Of a stretch of 5,935 bases of DNA, positions 1-5,935 are shown in pieces (within the stretch, counting starts at the first letter, position 1; each line of letters begins with the position of its first letter). A model generated the notes under the pieces. It was not told where the DNA came from. It worked only from the letters and a program-made list of their open reading frames with translations, and ran no database searches. The stretch lies in the NCBI GenBank assembly GCA_022865865.1, contig JALHTN010000683.1:1-5935 (forward strand), read 5' to 3'. Source of the DNA: Anaerolineales bacterium (lineage in GTDB: Bacteria > Chloroflexota > Anaerolineae > Anaerolineales > UBA4823). The position numbers were made by a program, and so were the translations under genes.

Positions 1-439
1 AAACGATGTGCTTCCCCGAGACCAGTTGGGCCAGGTCTTTATCAGGGGAGCAAATGACAACCTGATCAACGCTGGATTCATCATTGTAGCGCACCGCGGC
101 CGTGGCGATCGCATCATCAGCCTCGAACTCCACCATCGGCCAGACAACAATCCCGAGCGCATTAACAGCCTCCTCGGCCAGTGAGAATTGAGCGTGCAAA
201 TCTGGGTTAATGCCTGCAACGGTCTTGTATCCCGGGAACAGGTCGTTGCGGAAGGATTCGATGACGTGATCGAACGCGCATGCAATGTGGGTAGCACCCG
301 TATCAGATATCAGCGCCAGCATACTCCTCAACAGACCAATCGTAGCGCCGACTTCGCGGCCGTCGGGTGATTTTCTCGGTGGTGGTCCATAGAAACTGCG
401 AAAGAGCTCGTATGTGCCGTCTACGAGATGGATTTTCAT
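1..439 (-). CDS. 5'-3' exonuclease (PolI N-domain/FEN-like), 3' end off window
   Basis: This is the first 146 residues of a gene that reads leftward off the window. It begins MKIHLVDGTYELFRSFYG and matches the stand-alone 5'-3' exonuclease family related to the N-terminal domain of DNA polymerase I and to flap endonucleases, metal-dependent nucleases acting on 5' ends or flaps in DNA repair and replication. The family's acidic metal ligands are visible: Asp7 in LVDG, Asp57 in AFD, the EADD motif at 106-109, and SPDKDLAQLV at 131-140 with Asp133 and Asp135. The SFRNDLFPGYK segment (62-72) corresponds to the conserved SFRxE...GYK region. The C-terminal helix-hairpin-helix part should lie beyond position 1. 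The ATG at 437-439 is preceded by AGGAG (447-451) with a 7-nt gap. The AT-rich stretch at 452-505 may hold the promoter, but no clear -35/-10 pair stands out. The family call is secure; the exact cellular role is not known. Confidence 0.88.
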   Translation of the reverse strand, partial: MKIHLVDGTYELFRSFYGPPPRKSPDGREVGATIGLLRSMLALISDTGATHIACAFDHVIESFRNDLFPGYKTVAGINPDLHAQFSLAEEAVNALGIVVWPMVEFEADDAIATAAVRYNDESSVDQVVICSPDKDLAQLVSGKHIV

Positions 440-794
440 TGGAGTACTCCTATATATTAAGCGGAGCAGGGGACATTGAGTATTTATATATATTAATCGA
501 TTTTATGCAGCTGCACCGCAATTGCGAGGAGAATAATCACCTTCGATCGTGCTAAAAATCAGATAAAGGCATCAAAATCCTGGAGAACACGGTTCGAGTC
601 CGGTATCAGGATTTCTGCCCCAGCTTTCTGTTGCTTGATGAATTCGAATTCGATCCCCTGGTTGTTGAGAATCGAACGGGGTCTCAGCAGATAGTTCCTT
701 TCGCACAAATTGAATAAACCATGCTCAACACGAATGAGCAACCACTGAAATCGATCTCAATTTCATCTCATCGCTATGTGGGCATTACTATGTT
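440..794. other. Intergenic stretch with one doubtful ORF
   Basis: This gap of 355 bp separates two leftward genes. The end next to the exonuclease gene is very AT-rich (452-505) and is the likely promoter region for that gene. A minus-strand open frame at 559-741 (60 codons from a TTG, in-frame stop a few codons further upstream) gives a protein I do not recognise. It has no convincing ribosome binding site and no ATG, so I treat it as non-coding or as a relic. A small hairpin at 722-740 is listed separately. Nothing else is supportable here. Confidence 0.5.
722..740 (-). terminator. Weak hairpin downstream of the EamA gene
   Basis: TGCTCA at 722-727 and TGAGCA at 735-740 form a perfect 6-bp stem with a 7-nt loop, 55 nt past the transporter stop codon. 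On the minus strand the following bases are T-rich (TGGTTTATTCAATTT) but there is no uninterrupted T run. It may act as a weak terminator or mRNA 3' end, or be chance. Confidence 0.3.
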
Positions 795-1715
795 TCAGTC
801 AAGTTCATCTCGCGATTGGCTTTCTGCTTCTGAAACTCTGGTTGGCCTGATATTGACCAATAAAATGCCGACAGATGCCAGCGCTAAGCCAAGCACATCC
901 TGCGGGTAGAGCTGCTCGTCCAGGAATAGCCAGGCCAGCAGTGCGATCTGGATCAGCATCGTGTTGTTGATGATGCTGGATTCAAGCGCAGAAAGTGTCT
1001 GCAGTGTTTTATTCCACAGCGTAAATGCCAGGGCCGTGTTGACCGCTGCCAACCAGATGATCACGCCCCAATTATTGGCGCTCAGCGATGGCAAACCATC
1101 GATTGCTAATCCGGCAGCTAACAAAACCAGCGCTCCAATACCCATGCTGACCACAGTAACCACCAGCGGGGGTATCGCTTTACCCCGGTTGACCGATCGC
1201 CCAAGTAAGCTGGCCGCAGCATTGGCACATACTGTGAAACCCGCCAGGATAAAACCGATGATTGAGCCAGTAGCAATCGAAATAGGAAAGAAATAGATCG
1301 CTGCTCCGACAATAAAAACCAGGATCCCTACCCACTGCAGCCGCGAAGGCACTTCCTGCAGCACGACGATTCCAACCACTGCAACCACCACCGCTGTGAA
1401 ATTCAGGATCAAACTGAAGGGGATCGCCTCTAAATACTTTAGCGTCAGGAACTGCCCACCCTGAGTCAACGTGTAGAACACCAATCCCAGAGCTGCCAGC
1501 TGGCTCCATTGCTTGCGGGTCAGCGCGGCGAGCGTTGCCTTGTGCCGACTCAAGACTGGGAGCAAGATAAGCACCGCGATTGAGTACCGCAGTCCGGCAA
1601 ATATCAAGGGTGGGATTTGGTGGATTGAGTTCTTGACTAACACCCAGGAGGTCGACCAGAGGAAGGTCACCAGCAGGGCTAGAAGGACAGCCTTGAAACG
1701 CCCGGAAATTCGCAT
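795..1715 (-). CDS. EamA/DMT-family transporter
   Basis: This encodes a 306-residue inner-membrane transporter of the drug/metabolite transporter superfamily, EamA type, with two homologous five-helix halves (about residues 8-145 and 150-292). Family marks are the N-terminal LLVTFLWSTSWVLVK helix, the end of the first repeat (LQEVPSRLQWVGILVFIVG) and its counterpart in the second (FLDEQLYPQDVLGLALASVG). Length is normal for the family. The ATG at 1713-1715 has GAGGTG just upstream as Shine-Dalgarno. EamA proteins usually export amino acids, metabolites or toxic compounds; the substrate cannot be read from sequence alone. The upstream leader, which looks like a ykkC/guanidine-I riboswitch, suggests export of guanidine or a related compound. 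That is inference, since the well-studied guanidine exporters are the small four-helix SMR proteins of the same superfamily. The gene appears to be a single transcription unit, divergent from the MerR regulator. Confidence 0.93.
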   Translation of the reverse strand: MRISGRFKAVLLALLVTFLWSTSWVLVKNSIHQIPPLIFAGLRYSIAVLILLPVLSRHKATLAALTRKQWSQLAALGLVFYTLTQGGQFLTLKYLEAIPFSLILNFTAVVVAVVGIVVLQEVPSRLQWVGILVFIVGAAIYFFPISIATGSIIGFILAGFTVCANAAASLLGRSVNRGKAIPPLVVTVVSMGIGALVLLAAGLAIDGLPSLSANNWGVIIWLAAVNTALAFTLWNKTLQTLSALESSIINNTMLIQIALLAWLFLDEQLYPQDVLGLALASVGILLVNIRPTRVSEAESQSRDELD

Positions 1716-1854
1716 GGCAGCACCTCAAAATAGGAATTTATCAGCCTACCTGATCCCTCACGGCTTTTATCCGCTAAGGTGCTACGCTCATTCGCTTTTG
1801 TGACGCTCGGTCCAGACCCGCGTATACGACGGAACCCTAGTCACTCAGGGCGGC
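1716..1854 (-). ncRNA. ykkC-type (guanidine-I class) riboswitch leader of the transporter
   Basis: The untranslated leader of the transporter carries, in the right order, the conserved blocks I know from the ykkC aptamer. These are ACTAGGGTTCCG (minus strand, 1841-1830), GTCTGGACCGAG (1817-1806) and GGATAAAAGCC (1772-1762). GTGAC (1844-1840) pairs with GTCAC (1804-1800) to close the first helix. Inside it GGU/UCC pairs with GGACC, and a small CGUAUACG-containing hairpin lies between. The third block sits in a GCGG/CCGU hairpin. One departure is CCGAGCG, where CCGAGAG is commoner. ykkC RNAs include guanidine sensors and variants sensing ppGpp, PRPP or nucleoside diphosphates; I cannot assign the subtype by eye, but a transporter downstream fits guanidine best. 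The aptamer covers roughly 1748-1850. The remainder includes AGCACCT (1783-1777), complementary to the Shine-Dalgarno region, so translational control is likely. Confidence 0.82.
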
Positions 1855-1860
1855 CTCCTC

Positions 1861-1889
1861 ATTATATGGACGATACCCGAATGTGTCAA
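1861..1889 (-). promoter_or_regulatory. Consensus sigma-70 promoter of the riboswitch/transporter
   Basis: On the minus strand TTGACA (1889-1884) and TATAAT (1866-1861) both match the consensus exactly, with a 17-bp spacer. Transcription should start near 1854, giving a leader of about 139 nt before the transporter ATG. Such a strong promoter before a structured leader suits control after initiation by the RNA rather than by a repressor. Confidence 0.85.
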
Positions 1890-2073
1890 ACATTAAGTAG
1901 ATCAACCTTAGCAGCCATGATTAATTTTTCCAAAGGACAATTTGGTCACCAGTCCGGTGAGATTAATTGAGGCCTTCTTCTGGTATACATCACTTACTCG
2001 TGGTTACTTTCCTAATTAAAAACCTGAGGCTGAGAAAATATGCCGCCTGTAAAAGGCGAACTCAAAATTACCC

Positions 2074-2104
2074 TTGACATTGACGTTACGTTAAGGTGTA
2101 AGAT
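2074..2104 (+). promoter_or_regulatory. MerR-type promoter with 19-bp spacer
   Basis: TTGACA (2074-2079) and TAAGAT (2099-2104) are separated by 19 bp, longer than the usual 17 bp and typical of promoters that MerR-family regulators activate by twisting DNA. Transcription would begin about seven bases after the -10, at or next to the ATG at 2111. No Shine-Dalgarno lies between the -10 and the ATG, so the mRNA is probably leaderless. Confidence 0.75.
2077..2097 (+). promoter_or_regulatory. Dyad operator overlapping the MerR promoter
   Basis: An inverted repeat centred on T2087 has the core ACGT-T-ACGT, and 8 of 10 positions pair across 21 bp. It fills most of the 19-bp spacer and overlaps the -35, which is where MerR dimers bind. 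It most likely mediates autoregulation by the regulator encoded directly downstream. Confidence 0.65.
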
Positions 2105-2110
2105 TACAGT

Positions 2111-2860
2111 ATGCTGAGATACACGATCAAAGAGATCGCTGCTTTGGCCGGGGTGACGACCCGTACCTTGCGTTACTATGATCACATCGGTCTGCTCCCC
2201 CCAGCCGAGATCGGTGCCAACAGCTACCGCTATTACAACCAGGACAGCCTGCTCAAGCTGCAGCAGATCCTGTTCTACCGGGAGCTGGATGTACCGCTGG
2301 ATGAAATCCAGCTGCTCATCAGCCGTCCGGATTTCAACCTGGAGAGCGCCCTGCGGGATCACCGCTCGCGTCTGCAGAAACGTTTGGAAAGGCTGAACAC
2401 TTTAATTGCGACCATCGATCAAACCATCGCCAATATCAAAGGAGATAGAGTTATGGCTGCCCAGGATTATTTTGAAGGCTTTAACGAGAGCCAGTACGAA
2501 GAGGAAGTCCAGTCCCGCTGGGGGGATACCCGGCAGTATGCCGAATCTCAAAAGAAATGGAGCAGCTATTCCAAGGGTGAAAAAGAGGCTATCAAAGCTG
2601 AAGGCGGTCGGATTTCGGTCGCCATGGTCGGCAAAGGTCCCGATACAGCCCCGCATGACCCCGATGTACAGGCAGCCGTCGCTGAGTACCATGCCTATAT
2701 CAACCAGTACTTCTACTCCTGCGAGGTGGTCTACCTGCGCGGGCTGGCTGACATGTGGCTAGCTGACCCCAGGTTTTCAGCAAATTACGAAAATGTGCGC
2801 CCCGGAGGGGCAGCCTTCGTGCGAGACGCGGTTCATTTCTACTGCGACCATCATGGCTAA
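2111..2860 (+). CDS. MerR-family regulator with TipAS drug-binding domain
   Basis: This 249-residue protein matches the TipAL/Mta type of transcription activator in length and layout. Residues 3-70 form the MerR winged helix-turn-helix (YTIKEIAALAGVTTRTLRYY, then NSYRYYNQDSL). Residues 75-112 form the dimerising coiled coil, and about 118-245 form the TipAS domain, an all-helical fold that binds diverse antibiotics and triggers activation. Typical TipAS features are the SRWGDT segment (135-140), HDPDVQAAV (182-190), the YFYSCEVVYLRGLADMWLADPRF block and GGAAFVRDAV (232-241). Cys204 lies in the region where thiopeptide-capturing family members carry a reactive cysteine; alignment is needed to equate them. 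The promoter and dyad indicate autoactivation. Translation of the full protein appears leaderless, while an internal start (2453) would yield the drug-binding domain alone. The divergent transporter has its own promoter and RNA control, so it is not an obvious target. Confidence 0.93.
   Translation: MLRYTIKEIAALAGVTTRTLRYYDHIGLLPPAEIGANSYRYYNQDSLLKLQQILFYRELDVPLDEIQLLISRPDFNLESALRDHRSRLQKRLERLNTLIATIDQTIANIKGDRVMAAQDYFEGFNESQYEEEVQSRWGDTRQYAESQKKWSSYSKGEKEAIKAEGGRISVAMVGKGPDTAPHDPDVQAAVAEYHAYINQYFYSCEVVYLRGLADMWLADPRFSANYENVRPGGAAFVRDAVHFYCDHHG
2438..2455 (+). promoter_or_regulatory. Internal Shine-Dalgarno and ATG for the TipAS domain
   Basis: AAAGGAG (2438-2444) lies 8 nt before an ATG (2453-2455) that is in frame with the regulator, at codon 115. 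It falls exactly at the boundary between coiled coil and drug-binding domain. The full-length start has no such signal, so the internal site looks like the better ribosome binding site of the two. Confidence 0.7.
2453..2860 (+). CDS. TipAS-like drug-binding protein from an internal start
   Basis: This nested, in-frame product of 135 residues begins MAAQDYFEGFNESQYEEEVQ and holds the complete TipAS domain without the DNA-binding and coiled-coil parts. In Streptomyces lividans tipA the corresponding short form (144 residues) is made in excess from an internal start and sequesters drug. The same arrangement here is inferred from the strong internal Shine-Dalgarno. It was not demonstrated, and the site could be chance, though its position at the domain border argues against that. 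Confidence 0.55.
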   Translation: MAAQDYFEGFNESQYEEEVQSRWGDTRQYAESQKKWSSYSKGEKEAIKAEGGRISVAMVGKGPDTAPHDPDVQAAVAEYHAYINQYFYSCEVVYLRGLADMWLADPRFSANYENVRPGGAAFVRDAVHFYCDHHG

Positions 2861-2888
2861 GCAGGCGTGGTATCAGGCATGCTCCCCG

Positions 2889-2907
2889 GCTTAAGCTGCG
2901 CTTAAGC
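2889..2907 (+). terminator. Hairpin downstream of the MerR gene
   Basis: GCTTAAGC (2889-2896) is followed after TGC by a second GCTTAAGC (2900-2907). Each copy is itself a palindrome, and together they form an 8-bp stem with a 3-nt loop, 28 nt past the stop codon. The following TAATTTCT is only modestly T-rich. It could be a weak terminator or a protein-binding repeat. Confidence 0.4.
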
Positions 2908-2946
2908 TAATTTCTAACCTCCCATAAAGACGAAAACAACCCGCTG

Positions 2947-2976
2947 TTGTTACACTCCAGCCAGTATCAATAATTA
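2947..2976 (+). promoter_or_regulatory. Possible promoter of the secreted-protein gene
   Basis: TTGTTA (2947-2952) and TAATTA (2971-2976) are 18 bp apart, with the start codon at 2999. AACAAC (2935-2940) and GTTGTT (2946-2951) form an inverted repeat over the -35 that could be an operator. The match to consensus is moderate. Confidence 0.35.
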
Positions 2977-2998
2977 AATTGGTACCAAAGGAGTGCTG

Positions 2999-3496
2999 AT
3001 GATTAGGAAAATGATTTTTGGATTGCTGGCAGCGGTGCTGCTGGTGTCAGGGTTAGCAGTTGGCTCAGCTTATGCTGCAGAGGCTCCGGTAAGTTCTGCA
3101 AAATCAGCTGTTGGTCCTTATGAAGGCGTATTTTCTGGCGTGCTGTATGGTGATAACAACAGCCGGGCACCCATTGCCCTGCAGATGACCCACAGGGATG
3201 GGCAGGTGACCGGAAAGATTTACTTAGGAGAGGGTTTCTATGTGGACGCCGGACGCTGCGGCGGGACAAAGCTTCCAGCAATGGCGCAGTCAGCCAGCGG
3301 CAGCACTTTGGAGGGCAATCCGAGGCAGCTGTTCGTAAACACCAGTTTCAACCTGAGCGGCTTTGAGATCGGGGTTAATCTGAACAGCAAAATTTCTGCG
3401 GATGGAGAAACCCTCAGTGTAAGCACAACCATTGATCTGCCCTGGATTTGCGGCCGTGACCCATCTTATTCGGGAACGCTGTATAGAATTCAGTAA
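2999..3496 (+). CDS. Small secreted protein of unknown function
   Basis: I do not recognise a family for this 165-residue protein. Residues 1-26 are a clear Sec signal peptide: positive MIRK start, hydrophobic core, and AYA before AEAP as the likely signal peptidase I cut. There is no lipobox cysteine. The mature part of about 139 residues opens GPYEGVFSGVLYGDNN and is rich in alternating hydrophobic/polar stretches (APIALQMTHRDGQVTGKIYL, NLSGFEIGVNLNSKIS), which suggests a small beta-barrel or beta-sandwich. Two cysteines, Cys87 (GRCGG) and Cys151 (WICGRD), could form a disulfide outside the cytoplasm. I chose the ATG at 2999 rather than the GTG two codons earlier because AAAGGAG (2987-2993) is ideally spaced for it and overlaps the GTG. 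It lies 138 bp after the regulator, with a hairpin between, so it is probably a separate unit. Confidence 0.8.
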   Translation: MIRKMIFGLLAAVLLVSGLAVGSAYAAEAPVSSAKSAVGPYEGVFSGVLYGDNNSRAPIALQMTHRDGQVTGKIYLGEGFYVDAGRCGGTKLPAMAQSASGSTLEGNPRQLFVNTSFNLSGFEIGVNLNSKISADGETLSVSTTIDLPWICGRDPSYSGTLYRIQ

Positions 3497-3527
3497 GAAA
3501 TTTGGATTTGGGTTCGATGGATTGAGC

Positions 3528-3552
3528 TGGAGGTGGGTTCTACTCACCTCCA
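3528..3552 (+). terminator. GC-rich hairpin after the secreted-protein gene
   Basis: TGGAGGTG (3528-3535) and CACCTCCA (3545-3552) form a perfect 8-bp stem with a 9-nt loop, 31 nt past the stop codon. A further AGC/GCT pairing lies beyond a 2-nt bulge. No T run follows directly, so termination here is possible but not certain. Confidence 0.5.
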
Positions 3553-3639
3553 AAGCTGATCCCCAGGGAGCGGTACTGCAGCGGGTTTGGTGTCAAATTT
3601 TTCTTGTGTTTGTGTCATGTCATCATGTTCTATTCTGCA

Positions 3640-3767
3640 GCCCAACGGTTTGCGTTATTGGCGGTGGGGCGGGCTGGGATTCTGCTTGGGAGCAGGAAAA
3701 ACCCGAAATCAGAAAATGCTTGAAAATGCGGCAGAATCCCCACCGTCCACTGCACGCTTTGTTAGCC
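3640..3767 (-). repeat. Integron attC site (end of the PhzF cassette)
   Basis: This 128-bp imperfect palindrome is bounded by GCCCAAC (3640-3646) and GTTAGCC (3761-3767). Read on the minus strand it runs R''=GGCTAAC to R'=GTTGGGC, fitting the core GTTRRRY. Inside, GCGT pairs with ACGC, TGG with CCA, CGGTGGGG with CCCCACCG and GATTCTGC with GCAGAATC, around a variable T-rich centre. The minus-strand 5' arm carries extra unpaired bases (an A between TGG and CGG), as expected on the L'' side, which supports minus-strand orientation. The PhzF stop codon lies 26 nt upstream. It shares nearly all its arms with the copy at 4641-4769. Left of it the sequence shows no further attC, so this is the last site of the array within the window. 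Confidence 0.82.
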
Positions 3768-4646
3768 CGCTGCCTATCTTTAATAACGGACTTCTAAATT
3801 GTAATACTTCCTTCTAAATAAGTTACTGCTTCTCCTGAAATTAAGACCCGTTCACCTAAATCTTTGCATAAAAGTTTTCCTACTCTTGGCGACACTTGTA
3901 ATGCAAGCATGGACTCTTTCCCAAGTCTTTTACTCCAGTAAGGTATCAACGAGCAATGAGCAGAACCTGTTACAGGGTCTTCAAAAATGCTTGCTTGCGG
4001 AGTAAAGAAGCGAGAAACAAAATCAACTTCATTACCTTGGGCTGTTACGATAACCCCACCAGGGTCGAGGTTGATTTGATTTAGAATACTTTGATTAGGT
4101 TTCATACTTCGTATTGTTTCTTCGGTTTCAAATACAAGCACATAGTCTCTGGATTTTAGCACTTCGACAGGTTTTACCTGAATTGCGTCTAAAATTATTT
4201 GGGGAATATCGCTTGGTTCGGGTTTGCGAGATGGGAAGTTTAGAGTCAATAATTCATTTTCAACTGTTACCATCAGTTCACCGCTTTTTGACTGAAACTT
4301 TATAGATGGCAGAGAGTAGTTGAGATGCCTTGCGATAACGTGCGCAGTCGCAAGTGTTGCGTGTCCGCACAAATCCATTTCAATTTCTGGAGTGAACCAA
4401 CGAATTTCAAACCCATCATTCAATGGAATGAAAAATGCGGTTTCGGCAACAGAATTCTCTATTGCGATTCTTTGCATAACATCATCAGAGAGCCAATGTT
4501 CAAGGGGGCAAACAGCGGCAGGATTGCCACCGAAAACCTTGTCTGTGAAAGCGTCAACTTGGAATATTGGTAATTGCATAATGACCTTAAGGATTAGAAG
4601 ATACTTTTTAGGGTTATTGCTTATTTGGACATTGAAGGCGGGCTAA
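3646..4646 (-). mobile_element. Complete integron gene cassette (PhzF-family gene)
   Basis: Cutting between G and TT in both core sites gives a 1001-bp unit containing one gene plus its attC. In the circular form the regenerated R' would read GTTAGCC, exactly complementary to this cassette's own R'' (GGCTAAC). In the integrated state the attC ends instead in GTTGGGC, contributed by the next sequence. This swap of end bases is the signature of cassette insertion by an integron integrase. About 61 nt lie between the incoming core site and the ATG, and 26 nt between the stop and attC, as in typical cassettes. Confidence 0.78.
3794..4579 (-). CDS. PhzF-family isomerase/epimerase-like protein
   Basis: This 261-residue protein belongs to the PhzF family (diaminopimelate-epimerase fold, two similar halves). 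Its best-known member isomerises a phenazine precursor; most relatives, like E. coli YddE, have no known substrate. Visible family marks are VDAFTDKVFGGNPAAVC (8-24), SVAETAFF with the presumed catalytic Glu46, the WFTPEIEMDLCGHATLA block (61-77) with His73, and FTPQ...EDPVTGSAHC (192-209) with Asp201. All key residues seem intact and the length is only slightly short. The ATG at 4577-4579 has AAGG five bases upstream, a weak Shine-Dalgarno. The gene stands alone in its integron cassette with no phenazine genes nearby, so phenazine synthesis is not implied. It is visibly more AT-rich than the genes to its left, in keeping with acquisition. Transcription may depend on upstream cassettes. Confidence 0.92.
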   Translation of the reverse strand: MQLPIFQVDAFTDKVFGGNPAAVCPLEHWLSDDVMQRIAIENSVAETAFFIPLNDGFEIRWFTPEIEMDLCGHATLATAHVIARHLNYSLPSIKFQSKSGELMVTVENELLTLNFPSRKPEPSDIPQIILDAIQVKPVEVLKSRDYVLVFETEETIRSMKPNQSILNQINLDPGGVIVTAQGNEVDFVSRFFTPQASIFEDPVTGSAHCSLIPYWSKRLGKESMLALQVSPRVGKLLCKDLGERVLISGEAVTYLEGSITI

Positions 4647-4769
4647 CGGTTTGCGTTACTGGCGTTGGGGCGGGCGTGGACTCTGCTTGGGAGCAGAAAA
4701 AACTCGAAGCCAGAAAAATACTCGAAAACGCCGCAGAATCCCCAGCGTCCAGTGCACGCTTTGTTGGGC
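4641..4769 (-). repeat. Integron attC site (end of the DUF4386 cassette)
   Basis: This second attC, 129 bp, is bounded by GGCTAAC (4641-4647) and GTTGGGC (4763-4769). On the minus strand it reads R''=GCCCAAC to R'=GTTAGCC. The arms match the copy at 3640-3767 closely (AAAGCGTGCA, TGGGGATTCTGC, CTGCTCCCAAGCAGA, CGCAAACC in both), while the centre and the end heptamers differ. ACTGG pairs with CCAGT, and GATTCTGC faces GCAGAGTC with one G-T wobble. The DUF4386 stop codon is only 6 nt before it. Similar arms and variable centres are usual among attC sites of one chromosomal array. Confidence 0.82.
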
Positions 4770-4775
4770 GTATTT

Positions 4776-5468
4776 TTATTGCGCAAGACTTGATGGTTGA
4801 TCCTTCGCACCCATAATCAGAAGCCACAAAGTAAGCACAAATTCCCCAATAAAACCAACCGCGAAACTTAGGTAAGATATTACTTCGTAGGCTGGAAAAA
4901 GGAAAAACTGAAAAGGATATATGAGCCAACCAAAACACTCAATCATCAATATGATGCCTAGAATTTTGGGAAGGTAGCCTGACTTGAAAACCAAGTAACC
5001 AAGAGGAAAGAGCCAAGCGGCATAAAAGAACTGGGCAATCATAAACCCATTTTTATATAGATAGAGAAAGAACATTGCTAAAGTTTGCAATTGCTCTATT
5101 TGGAATACTTTCAAGTAATCGGCACCGCTCAACAGCAGCACGGCAGAAAATAGATTAAGCATATTTATACACTGTACAGCGACACCGCCCAAGTTTAATA
5201 ACAAGAAAAGCAAAGCGATGTTTTTATTGACTGGTTTTAATAACACGTATAAAGCCCAAGCCGCCAAAAGGAAAAAAACACCAGCGAGGACATCGCTCAC
5301 AAAACCGATACGGAATAGCCACTCAGAAGCCAGAATATTATTGGCTGTTGCTATGGCATCTCCAAACACTACAAGTTTAGTGCGAGATACGTTTGCAAAC
5401 ATTGTGGCTACTATGTAGATGAAATACAGGAACCCTGCAATTCTTGCGGTCTTTTTATTTGTATTCAT
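4776..5468 (-). CDS. DUF4386 family integral membrane protein
   Basis: This 230-residue polytopic membrane protein matches the DUF4386 family, whose function is unknown. Diagnostic stretches are TARIAGFLYFIYIV (7-20), VVFGDAIATANNILASEWLFRIGF (33-56), LAAWALYVLLKPVNKNIALL (68-87) and GYLVFKSGYLPKILGIILMIECFGWLIYP (157-185). Six or seven hydrophobic helices span the protein. I placed the start at the ATG (5466-5468) preceded by GGAGA six bases upstream. A longer reading from a GTG at 5507 adds 13 unlikely residues and lacks that signal. The stop lies 6 nt before the attC site. It is downstream of, and probably co-transcribed with, the membrane-protein gene at 5511. Base composition is AT-rich like the PhzF gene. 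Confidence 0.88.
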   Translation of the reverse strand: MNTNKKTARIAGFLYFIYIVATMFANVSRTKLVVFGDAIATANNILASEWLFRIGFVSDVLAGVFFLLAAWALYVLLKPVNKNIALLFLLLNLGGVAVQCINMLNLFSAVLLLSGADYLKVFQIEQLQTLAMFFLYLYKNGFMIAQFFYAAWLFPLGYLVFKSGYLPKILGIILMIECFGWLIYPFQFFLFPAYEVISYLSFAVGFIGEFVLTLWLLIMGAKDQPSSLAQ

Positions 5469-5510
5469 TTTTTGTCTCCATTGAATAGGGAATAAACCGA
5501 TGCGCACACA

Positions 5511-5935
5511 TTAGGCTGACGCGTACAGCCTTTTGTATAGATAGCCAATAACTATTCCAAGAAAGAGAAACCTTGGTATGTCAAGCATTATGCCGATGAG
5601 GAAGTAATGCTTGACATCTCTCTGCCCAAGAATACTTTGGGGAACTAGGATTAGGATTGTGGCAATGACTAGGGCGATGAGGCTTATTATCACGGATTTT
5701 AGAACTGGATTCTTTGTTGGAATCTTGTCAAAAAAACGAAGCAAAGAATAACTGACGCAGCATCCGACAATCAAACCAGCAGGCAAAGAATCAACCCAAA
5801 CCGTTTGAATATTTGCTTTTGAAAAGGCAGATCTATACTCCGCTGCGATGGGAAGCAGGGAAATTGCGATGGTAGTTACCCAGAATACTACTCCTCCCCC
5901 AATAGTTAGTTTGGACAGATTGAGGAACCCTGCCA
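5511..5935 (-). CDS. Unrecognised membrane protein, 5' end off window
   Basis: The frame is open from the right window edge to a TAA at 5511-5513 and gives 140 residues ending GIVIGYLYKRLYASA. I do not recognise the family. Four hydrophobic helices are visible: LTIGGGVVFWVTTIAISLLP, VDSLPAGLIVGCCVSYSLL, SVIISLIALVIATILILVP, and IMLDIPRFLFLGIVIGYLY. A shorter reading from a TTG at 5786 is possible, but the frame stays open and membrane-like to the edge, so the true start is probably outside. It precedes the DUF4386 gene by 42 nt with no attC or terminator between, suggesting a two-gene cassette and perhaps a joint membrane role. That role is unknown. Confidence 0.7.
   Translation of the reverse strand, partial: AGFLNLSKLTIGGGVVFWVTTIAISLLPIAAEYRSAFSKANIQTVWVDSLPAGLIVGCCVSYSLLRFFDKIPTKNPVLKSVIISLIALVIATILILVPQSILGQRDVKHYFLIGIMLDIPRFLFLGIVIGYLYKRLYASA

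Follow-up and report, generated by a model that had tools for sequence, protein, structure and literature searches.

Two attC sites of an integron gene-cassette array in an Anaerolineales contig, and their relatives in Anaerolineae and phages

The window, the whole stretch of 5,935 nucleotides that was analyzed, almost certainly carries two genuine attC sites on its minus strand, set in an integron gene-cassette array. The attC family to which they belong is common to many uncultured Anaerolineae (Chloroflexota) and to phages. Integrons are best known from Proteobacteria. The machinery described here is that of an ordinary integron, whose mechanism is already known, and the sites form a newly found attC family of this known kind. 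The original prediction of an integron cassette array on the minus strand is supported by matches to a covariance model of the sites (R1), by the matching of heptamers between neighboring sites (the circle rule), by same-strand arrays, and by integrase and attI in relatives.

Sites and cassettes of the window

Site A (129 bp, 4641..4769, minus strand) matched R1 with 133.9 bits (E 2.7e-37); its R'' is GCCCAAC (4763-4769) and its R' is GTTAGCC (4641-4647). Site B (128 bp, 3640..3767, minus strand), the last site seen in the array, scored 124.8 bits (E 1.1e-34), with R'' GGCTAAC (3761-3767) and R' GTTGGGC (3640-3646). These E-values are rough; the window was left out of the training of R1. A third match in the window (32 nt at 5778-5809, E 0.048) was taken as chance. 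The predicted lengths and coordinates of both palindromes proved correct, and so did their spacing from the stop codons, with 26 nt between the PhzF ORF (3794-4579) and site B and 6 nt between the DUF4386 ORF (4776-5507) and site A. The two sites are spaced 873 nt apart. They had been described as sharing their arms and differing in the center. The arms are shared, but the similarity spans the center as well: identity is 85% across 3637-3716 and, after a shift of one base, 88% across 3713-3763.

In both sites, R'' ends in AAC and R' begins with GTT at the outer ends. The heptamers are as claimed: R' of site A (GTTAGCC, 4647 down to 4641) exactly complements R'' of site B (GGCTAAC, 3767 down to 3761). 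Within the window alone this match is weak evidence, since known sites paired at random agree fully in about 17% of cases (14.9/86). The inner junction GGCTAAC/GTTAGCC breaks the strict forms RYYYAAC/GTTRRRY. An Rfam scan of the window gave no match at gathering score. Reading of the ORFs agreed with the prediction that these 5.9 kb hold no integrase.

The PhzF gene cassette (1001 bp, 3646..4646, minus strand) lies between two predicted G|TT crossover points in the heptamers of sites A and B, a crossover position that we take from established integron knowledge. Its gene encodes a PhzF-family protein of 261 aa (3794..4579, minus strand; PF02567, E 4.3e-53). The next cassette upstream carries the gene of a DUF4386 protein of 243 aa (4776..5507, minus strand; PF14329, E 2.3e-48). 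A partial ORF with no Pfam match (5511..5933, minus strand) is located 3 nt upstream of the DUF4386 ORF. It probably belongs to the same cassette, because no R1 site occurs between 4770 and the window end, and the expected plus-strand junction GCCCAAC is missing from that stretch too.

Beyond site B, positions 1..3639 lie outside the cassettes as far as seen, and no further R1 site was found there at E up to 1. Pfam identified the N-terminal part of an exonuclease, an EamA transporter and a MerR-TipAS regulator in this flank and gave no match for ORF 2993-3496. The MerR regulator, with its TipAS antibiotic-recognition domain, is at 2111-2860, near the array end and outside the cassettes as far as seen.

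The PhzF cassette protein shares 80-89% identity with proteins named from Phycisphaerae, Cyanobacteria and Chloroflexi records, a likeness which suggests transfer between phyla. In the class of genome G034 (titled Anaerolineales), PhzF homologues at E≤1e-70 were found in 4/199 genomes, the best at 74%, and no R1 site was found within the loci examined around these four. Matches of two proteins of the flank in that class were at 33-39% (3/199 genomes) and at 43-49% (7/396 genomes, E≤1e-60). When plasmids were searched with the cassette region, two Salmonella plasmids matched at 68.8% over 212 bp of a PhzF gene. In the one inspected, the PhzF neighbors were brnQ, a PAS-domain gene and a RidA-family gene, with no annotated cassette.

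The site family, its arrays and its integrases in relatives

To collect related sites, we used the search pattern GGTTTGCGTTA-N(75-105)-GCACGCTTTGTT. It matched 24 stretches in IMG/VR and at least 120 stretches in the genome collection, the latter mostly titled Anaerolineales, Anaerolineae, Anaerolineaceae or Chloroflexi. The resulting pattern set comprises 223 sites from 145 records, window included. Alignment A1 holds 57 of the 200 genome sites, each less than 88% identical to the others and with the window excluded, and R1 was built from these 57 sites. The search pattern dictated columns 5-16 and 138-151 of A1, among them the extra base at position 16, whereas the pairs of columns 18-33 were free.

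In the hairpin assigned to A1, 92.1% of the cells are paired. Double-changed cells numbered 180, compared with 65.6 ± 6.5 in shuffles, and 0/500 shuffles reached as high a count. Sliding the partners by 1-3 columns left only 18-31 such cells. Most of the compensatory change is carried by the column pairs 18-33. Single-sequence DNA folding of the window sites was ordinary (z -0.85 to -1.55 in four folds); the hairpin is accepted because of covariation across the 57 sites, not because of folding energy. The unpaired spacer is AAA on one side and AAACC on the other, and the terminal center is variable. Extra single bases on the R''-L'' arm are C16, fixed by the pattern, and A22, which is invariant and not pattern-fixed. 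The unpaired spacer and extrahelical bases in attC definitions, as given in the part of PMC2727003 available, agree with A1 positions 16 and 22, position 16 being pattern-fixed.

Copies of the arms elsewhere had been expected in tandem with genes between them, as opposed to dispersed gene-free repeats, and this is how they occur (145 records, 65 gaps). None of the 145 records had pattern sites on both strands. Of 65 gaps of up to 1600 nt in the genome loci and the window, 62 contain a sense ORF of at least 60 aa, and the median longest ORF was 203 aa in sense versus 64 aa in antisense. R' matched the next R'' at all four outer bases in 72/86 same-strand adjacent pairs. In comparison, 1000 shuffles of the 86 pairs gave a mean of 14.9 and a maximum of 27, reversed order gave 16/86, and R' and R'' of the same site matched fully in just 45/223. 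Such matching of neighbors is the trace expected from insertion of circular cassettes.

The circle rule also applied beside integrases, in 44/47 testable pairs from ten stretches of eight genomes, each stretch strand-uniform. Nine stretches lie beside, or continue from, an integrase over the cut-off and one lies beside a split integrase. Their 71 sites (nine partial matches were widened by 10 nt on both sides) yielded 68 entries after removal of three truncated matches, and these gave 58 adjacent pairs, 47 of them testable. The chromosomal array sites and the 200 genome sites partly overlap, and their counts are not summed. With 72/86 and 44/47 pairs in relatives, the reading of the heptamer rule as a sign of circular cassette insertion held up. 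The outer heptamer bases fit RYYYAAC in 137/223 sites and GTTRRRY in 117/223. Since these bases break the strict forms and yet match between neighbors, only AAC/GTT seems to be required in the heptamer, AAC/GTT itself being fixed by the search pattern.

Integrases were sought in 50 pattern genomes, chosen by Chloroflexota-type titles among the genomes of the at least 120 stretches; other Chloroflexota and unclassified genomes were left out. The integron integrase family TIGR02249 was found over its curated cut-off in 32/50 of them versus 0/14 controls. Weaker matches, as expected from Xer-type relatives, were present in 50/50 and 14/14, respectively. The remaining 18/50 pattern genomes had no integrase over the cut-off. 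An R1 match at E≤1e-4 was found in 15 of 25 integrase loci, each read with up to 1.5 kb to either side, and one of these 15 is cut off (L153); in the other ten no R1 site was found within 1.5 kb. Locus L148 has R1 matches on both strands, the weaker one at E 1.6e-6. For the L147 integrase, the nearest PDB entry was 2a3v (E 7.1e-90), named IntI4, which we take to be the V. cholerae enzyme.

After omission of L153, 14 of the 15 loci with a site were tested for attI, and 13 had a recognizable integrase frame. The expected junction heptamer was present between that frame and the first attC in 13/13, at 4-138 nt from the 5' end of the frame and preceded by TA in 12/13. The intI and attI predicted beside this attC type are present in relatives (32/50 genomes; 13/13 attI junctions). 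In G037 an array of 31 sites, all on the same strand, stretches from 1,396 to 1,462 kb (~65 kb), with an integrase adjoining its start at 1,395 kb.

Across the class of G034, R1 sites at E≤1e-4 were found in 49/199 genomes and an integrase over the cut-off in 57/199, with partial overlap. In the class of a Desulfobulbus-titled genome, 3/192 genomes had R1 sites, the seed being one of the three. With the strict filters used, 49/199 and 3/192 are lower bounds. Many integrase-positive genomes of G034's class had no R1 site; given these and the 18/50 genomes lacking an integrase over the cut-off, the association of integrase and R1 across the class is loose. The partial overlap suggests that other attC types, and probably other integron lineages, exist in this class, where the R1 count is a lower bound. 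Sixteen pattern genomes with other titles had 1 to 7 sites each, all on one contig in 15/16, which fits both stray contigs in bins and single transfers.

Some genomes have scattered sites far from an integrase. Contig C2 of G019 (loci L175 and L194-L253) bears 54 attC sites in clusters over 3.1 Mb; 9/9 are on the minus strand below 1.01 Mb and 45/45 on the plus strand above 1.34 Mb. The best GC-skew change point on this contig, from 60 sampled 20-kb windows, is at 1.20-1.24 Mb. In this one genome the pattern is suggestive, and attC orientation may follow replication direction. Mixed site strands in G007 C11, G006 and G077 contradict orientation by replication in those genomes.

Phage contigs with the same sites

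Phage contigs make up at least part of the IMG/VR records. When 20 large proteins from 20 IMG/VR loci were compared with protein families, 11 matched terminase or portal families. Four others matched other known phage-library families (a helicase, two integrases and a methyltransferase), one matched unknown families only and four matched none. Among first-scan phage records, TIGR02249 was over the cut-off in 1/22, with one more below it at 4.2e-62. The first scan gave 110 R1 sites in 24 loci (L001-L024). The second scan covered further contigs from IMG/VR and gave 85 sites in 18 loci (L254-L271). When the gap was lengthened in a third scan of viral sequences, there were no matches. Locus L268 of the second scan has sites on both strands.

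Neighboring heptamers matched in 55/77 testable pairs of the first scan and in 49/63 of the second, with shuffled means of 7.8. For this test 105 of the 110 first-scan sites were used, after removal of two sites of L015, which duplicates L013, and of three sites at the ends of loci; the 105 gave 83 pairs, 77 of them testable. For the counts of cassettes and read-through, four more short or lone sites were left out (101 sites), and 96 were examined for frames. In the second scan 84 of 85 sites were entered. The median length of circle-rule cassettes was 366 nt and 411 nt in phages versus 954 nt for 71 genome cassettes.

The longest sense ORF extends into attC by more than 12 nt before it stops in 42/55 phage cassettes. 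We counted read-through in the same way everywhere, as a frame of at least 35 codons from its start that runs at least 20 nt into attC. Such gene-like frames were seen in 75/96 and 60/84 phage sites versus 9/57 in chromosomal arrays (59 of 71 sites entered, 57 examined) and 22/200 genome sites. Chromosomal attC is also often open in one frame. In some short phage cassettes the real gene may be an ORF other than the longest one, which could account for part of the read-through.

One phage gene that reads into attC encodes a small cytosine methyltransferase of 225 aa; 104 of its 120 best listed homologues have 190-207 aa. The end motif could be placed in 77 homologues, and 59/77 have at most 11 residues after it, compared with 28, mostly attC-coded, in the phage copy. 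The tails of a few homologues resemble attC read in another frame. In the attC-coded part, CxxC occurred in 17/75 gene frames versus 7/150 other frames in the first scan (p 1e-4). In the second scan the counts were 5/60 versus 4/120, which is not significant (p 0.16). Among pattern sites, CxxC was present in 8/60 frames in phages and 1/600 in genomes. Zinc-ribbon Pfam matches in the attC-coded tails were under the gathering cut-offs.

These data point, tentatively and with a likelihood a little short of even, to phages that carry this attC family in arrays of miniature cassettes, in most cases lacking an integron integrase, and in which attC is also coding: genes would enter it and terminate within it, and for some of them the variable loop would encode an in-frame zinc ribbon. 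No report of genes reading into attC was found among the matches listed, nor in the portions available of PMC9892861, PMC8876359 and PMC11014356.

Nature of the window array and its place among known integrons

Under the integron reading, each cassette would consist of one (or two) genes and one attC. The bottom strand of attC, when single-stranded, would fold with the R and L arms paired, the spacer unpaired and two lone extra bases protruding from the R''-L'' arm. An integron integrase whose gene lies elsewhere would cut G|TT in R', either to excise the cassette as a circle or to insert it at attI or another attC. Site anatomy, covariation, tandem arrays, the circle rule, and integrase and attI beside relatives' arrays are observed here. 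By analogy with those relatives, an integrase of this kind presumably serves the window's own array, which may still be active, and excision and insertion would follow the biochemical steps above.

Within this reading, a narrower one takes the array for a CALIN, whose attC cassettes either went in at a distance from any integron or stayed behind when intI was lost; it does not compete with the cassette array, and we consider the chances even. The window is without an integrase, relatives have sites far from one (as in G019, with 54 sites over a 3.1-Mb contig), and 18/50 pattern genomes have none over the cut-off. However, the window ends upstream, where an integrase would lie, and the ~65-kb array of G037 has its integrase at the start only.

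Two readings would do away with the integron. Dispersed palindromic repeats, REP- or MITE-like, could resemble attC by accident; they too would be multicopy imperfect palindromes of ~130 bp, and in some genomes the clusters are scattered. This is contradicted by strands uniform within loci, genes between the copies, the circle rule and the integrase and attI junctions. Heptamers match between neighbors (72/86), not within a site (45/223), and we regard such repeats as a highly improbable source of the sites. Equally improbable as the main role is that of transcription terminators or structured RNA downstream of genes. The hairpins do stand 6 and 26 nt past stop codons, but no Rfam match was found, and the circle rule and integrase linkage, left unexplained by this reading, contradict it. 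As a second role, attC sites might still act as terminators.

As an integron cassette array, the system resembles the Vibrio cholerae superintegron in its long strand-uniform arrays of similar attC, an IntI relative of 2a3v, the attI junction and the circle rule. In the part of PMC2727003 available, the VCR has G16 at the same place as the extra base of the L'' arm here, at position 16 from R''. The family differs from VCR in phylum and arm sequence, in having two modeled extra bases (16 and 22) versus three (G16, T20 and T24), and in spacer arms modeled as 3 and 5 nt. Like a CALIN by the criterion in the available part of PMC9668308, the window combines two attC sites, separated by less than 4 kb, with the lack of a visible integrase, though it is too short to show integrase absence. 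A lineage-typical consensus recognized by a covariance model also marks the taxon-specific attC families of Ghaly et al. 2021 (PMC8352920), whose 11 taxa, in the portion available, do not include Chloroflexota. Phage-borne CALINs, as described in the accessible part of PMC9892861, are likewise attC arrays without integrase in phage genomes, whereas the contigs here have the window site type, short cassettes and gene-like frames into attC.

In the portions available, PMC9668308 and PMC8618304 each mention integrons in Chloroflexota once, and PMC5732528 and PMC12772301 propose that the mobile gene sul4 came from Chloroflexota. Literature on integrons in Anaerolineae, Chloroflexi, Chloroflexota or Anaerolineales was searched by title and start of abstract, with subscription papers and preprints outside its scope, and no description of this attC family was found among the matches listed.

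A well-marked Anaerolineae attC family with integrase and attI is a ready model for finding cassettes in metagenomes. The occurrence of these sites in phages of several kinds makes phage-borne transfer of cassettes between integrons directly testable. If the phage reading is true, phages would shuttle such cassettes to and from Anaerolineae integrons, and attC would serve in nature both for recombination and as a C-terminal protein module. Translated attC sites would then parallel, in nature, the designed attC sites to which the available part of PMC8618304 refers.
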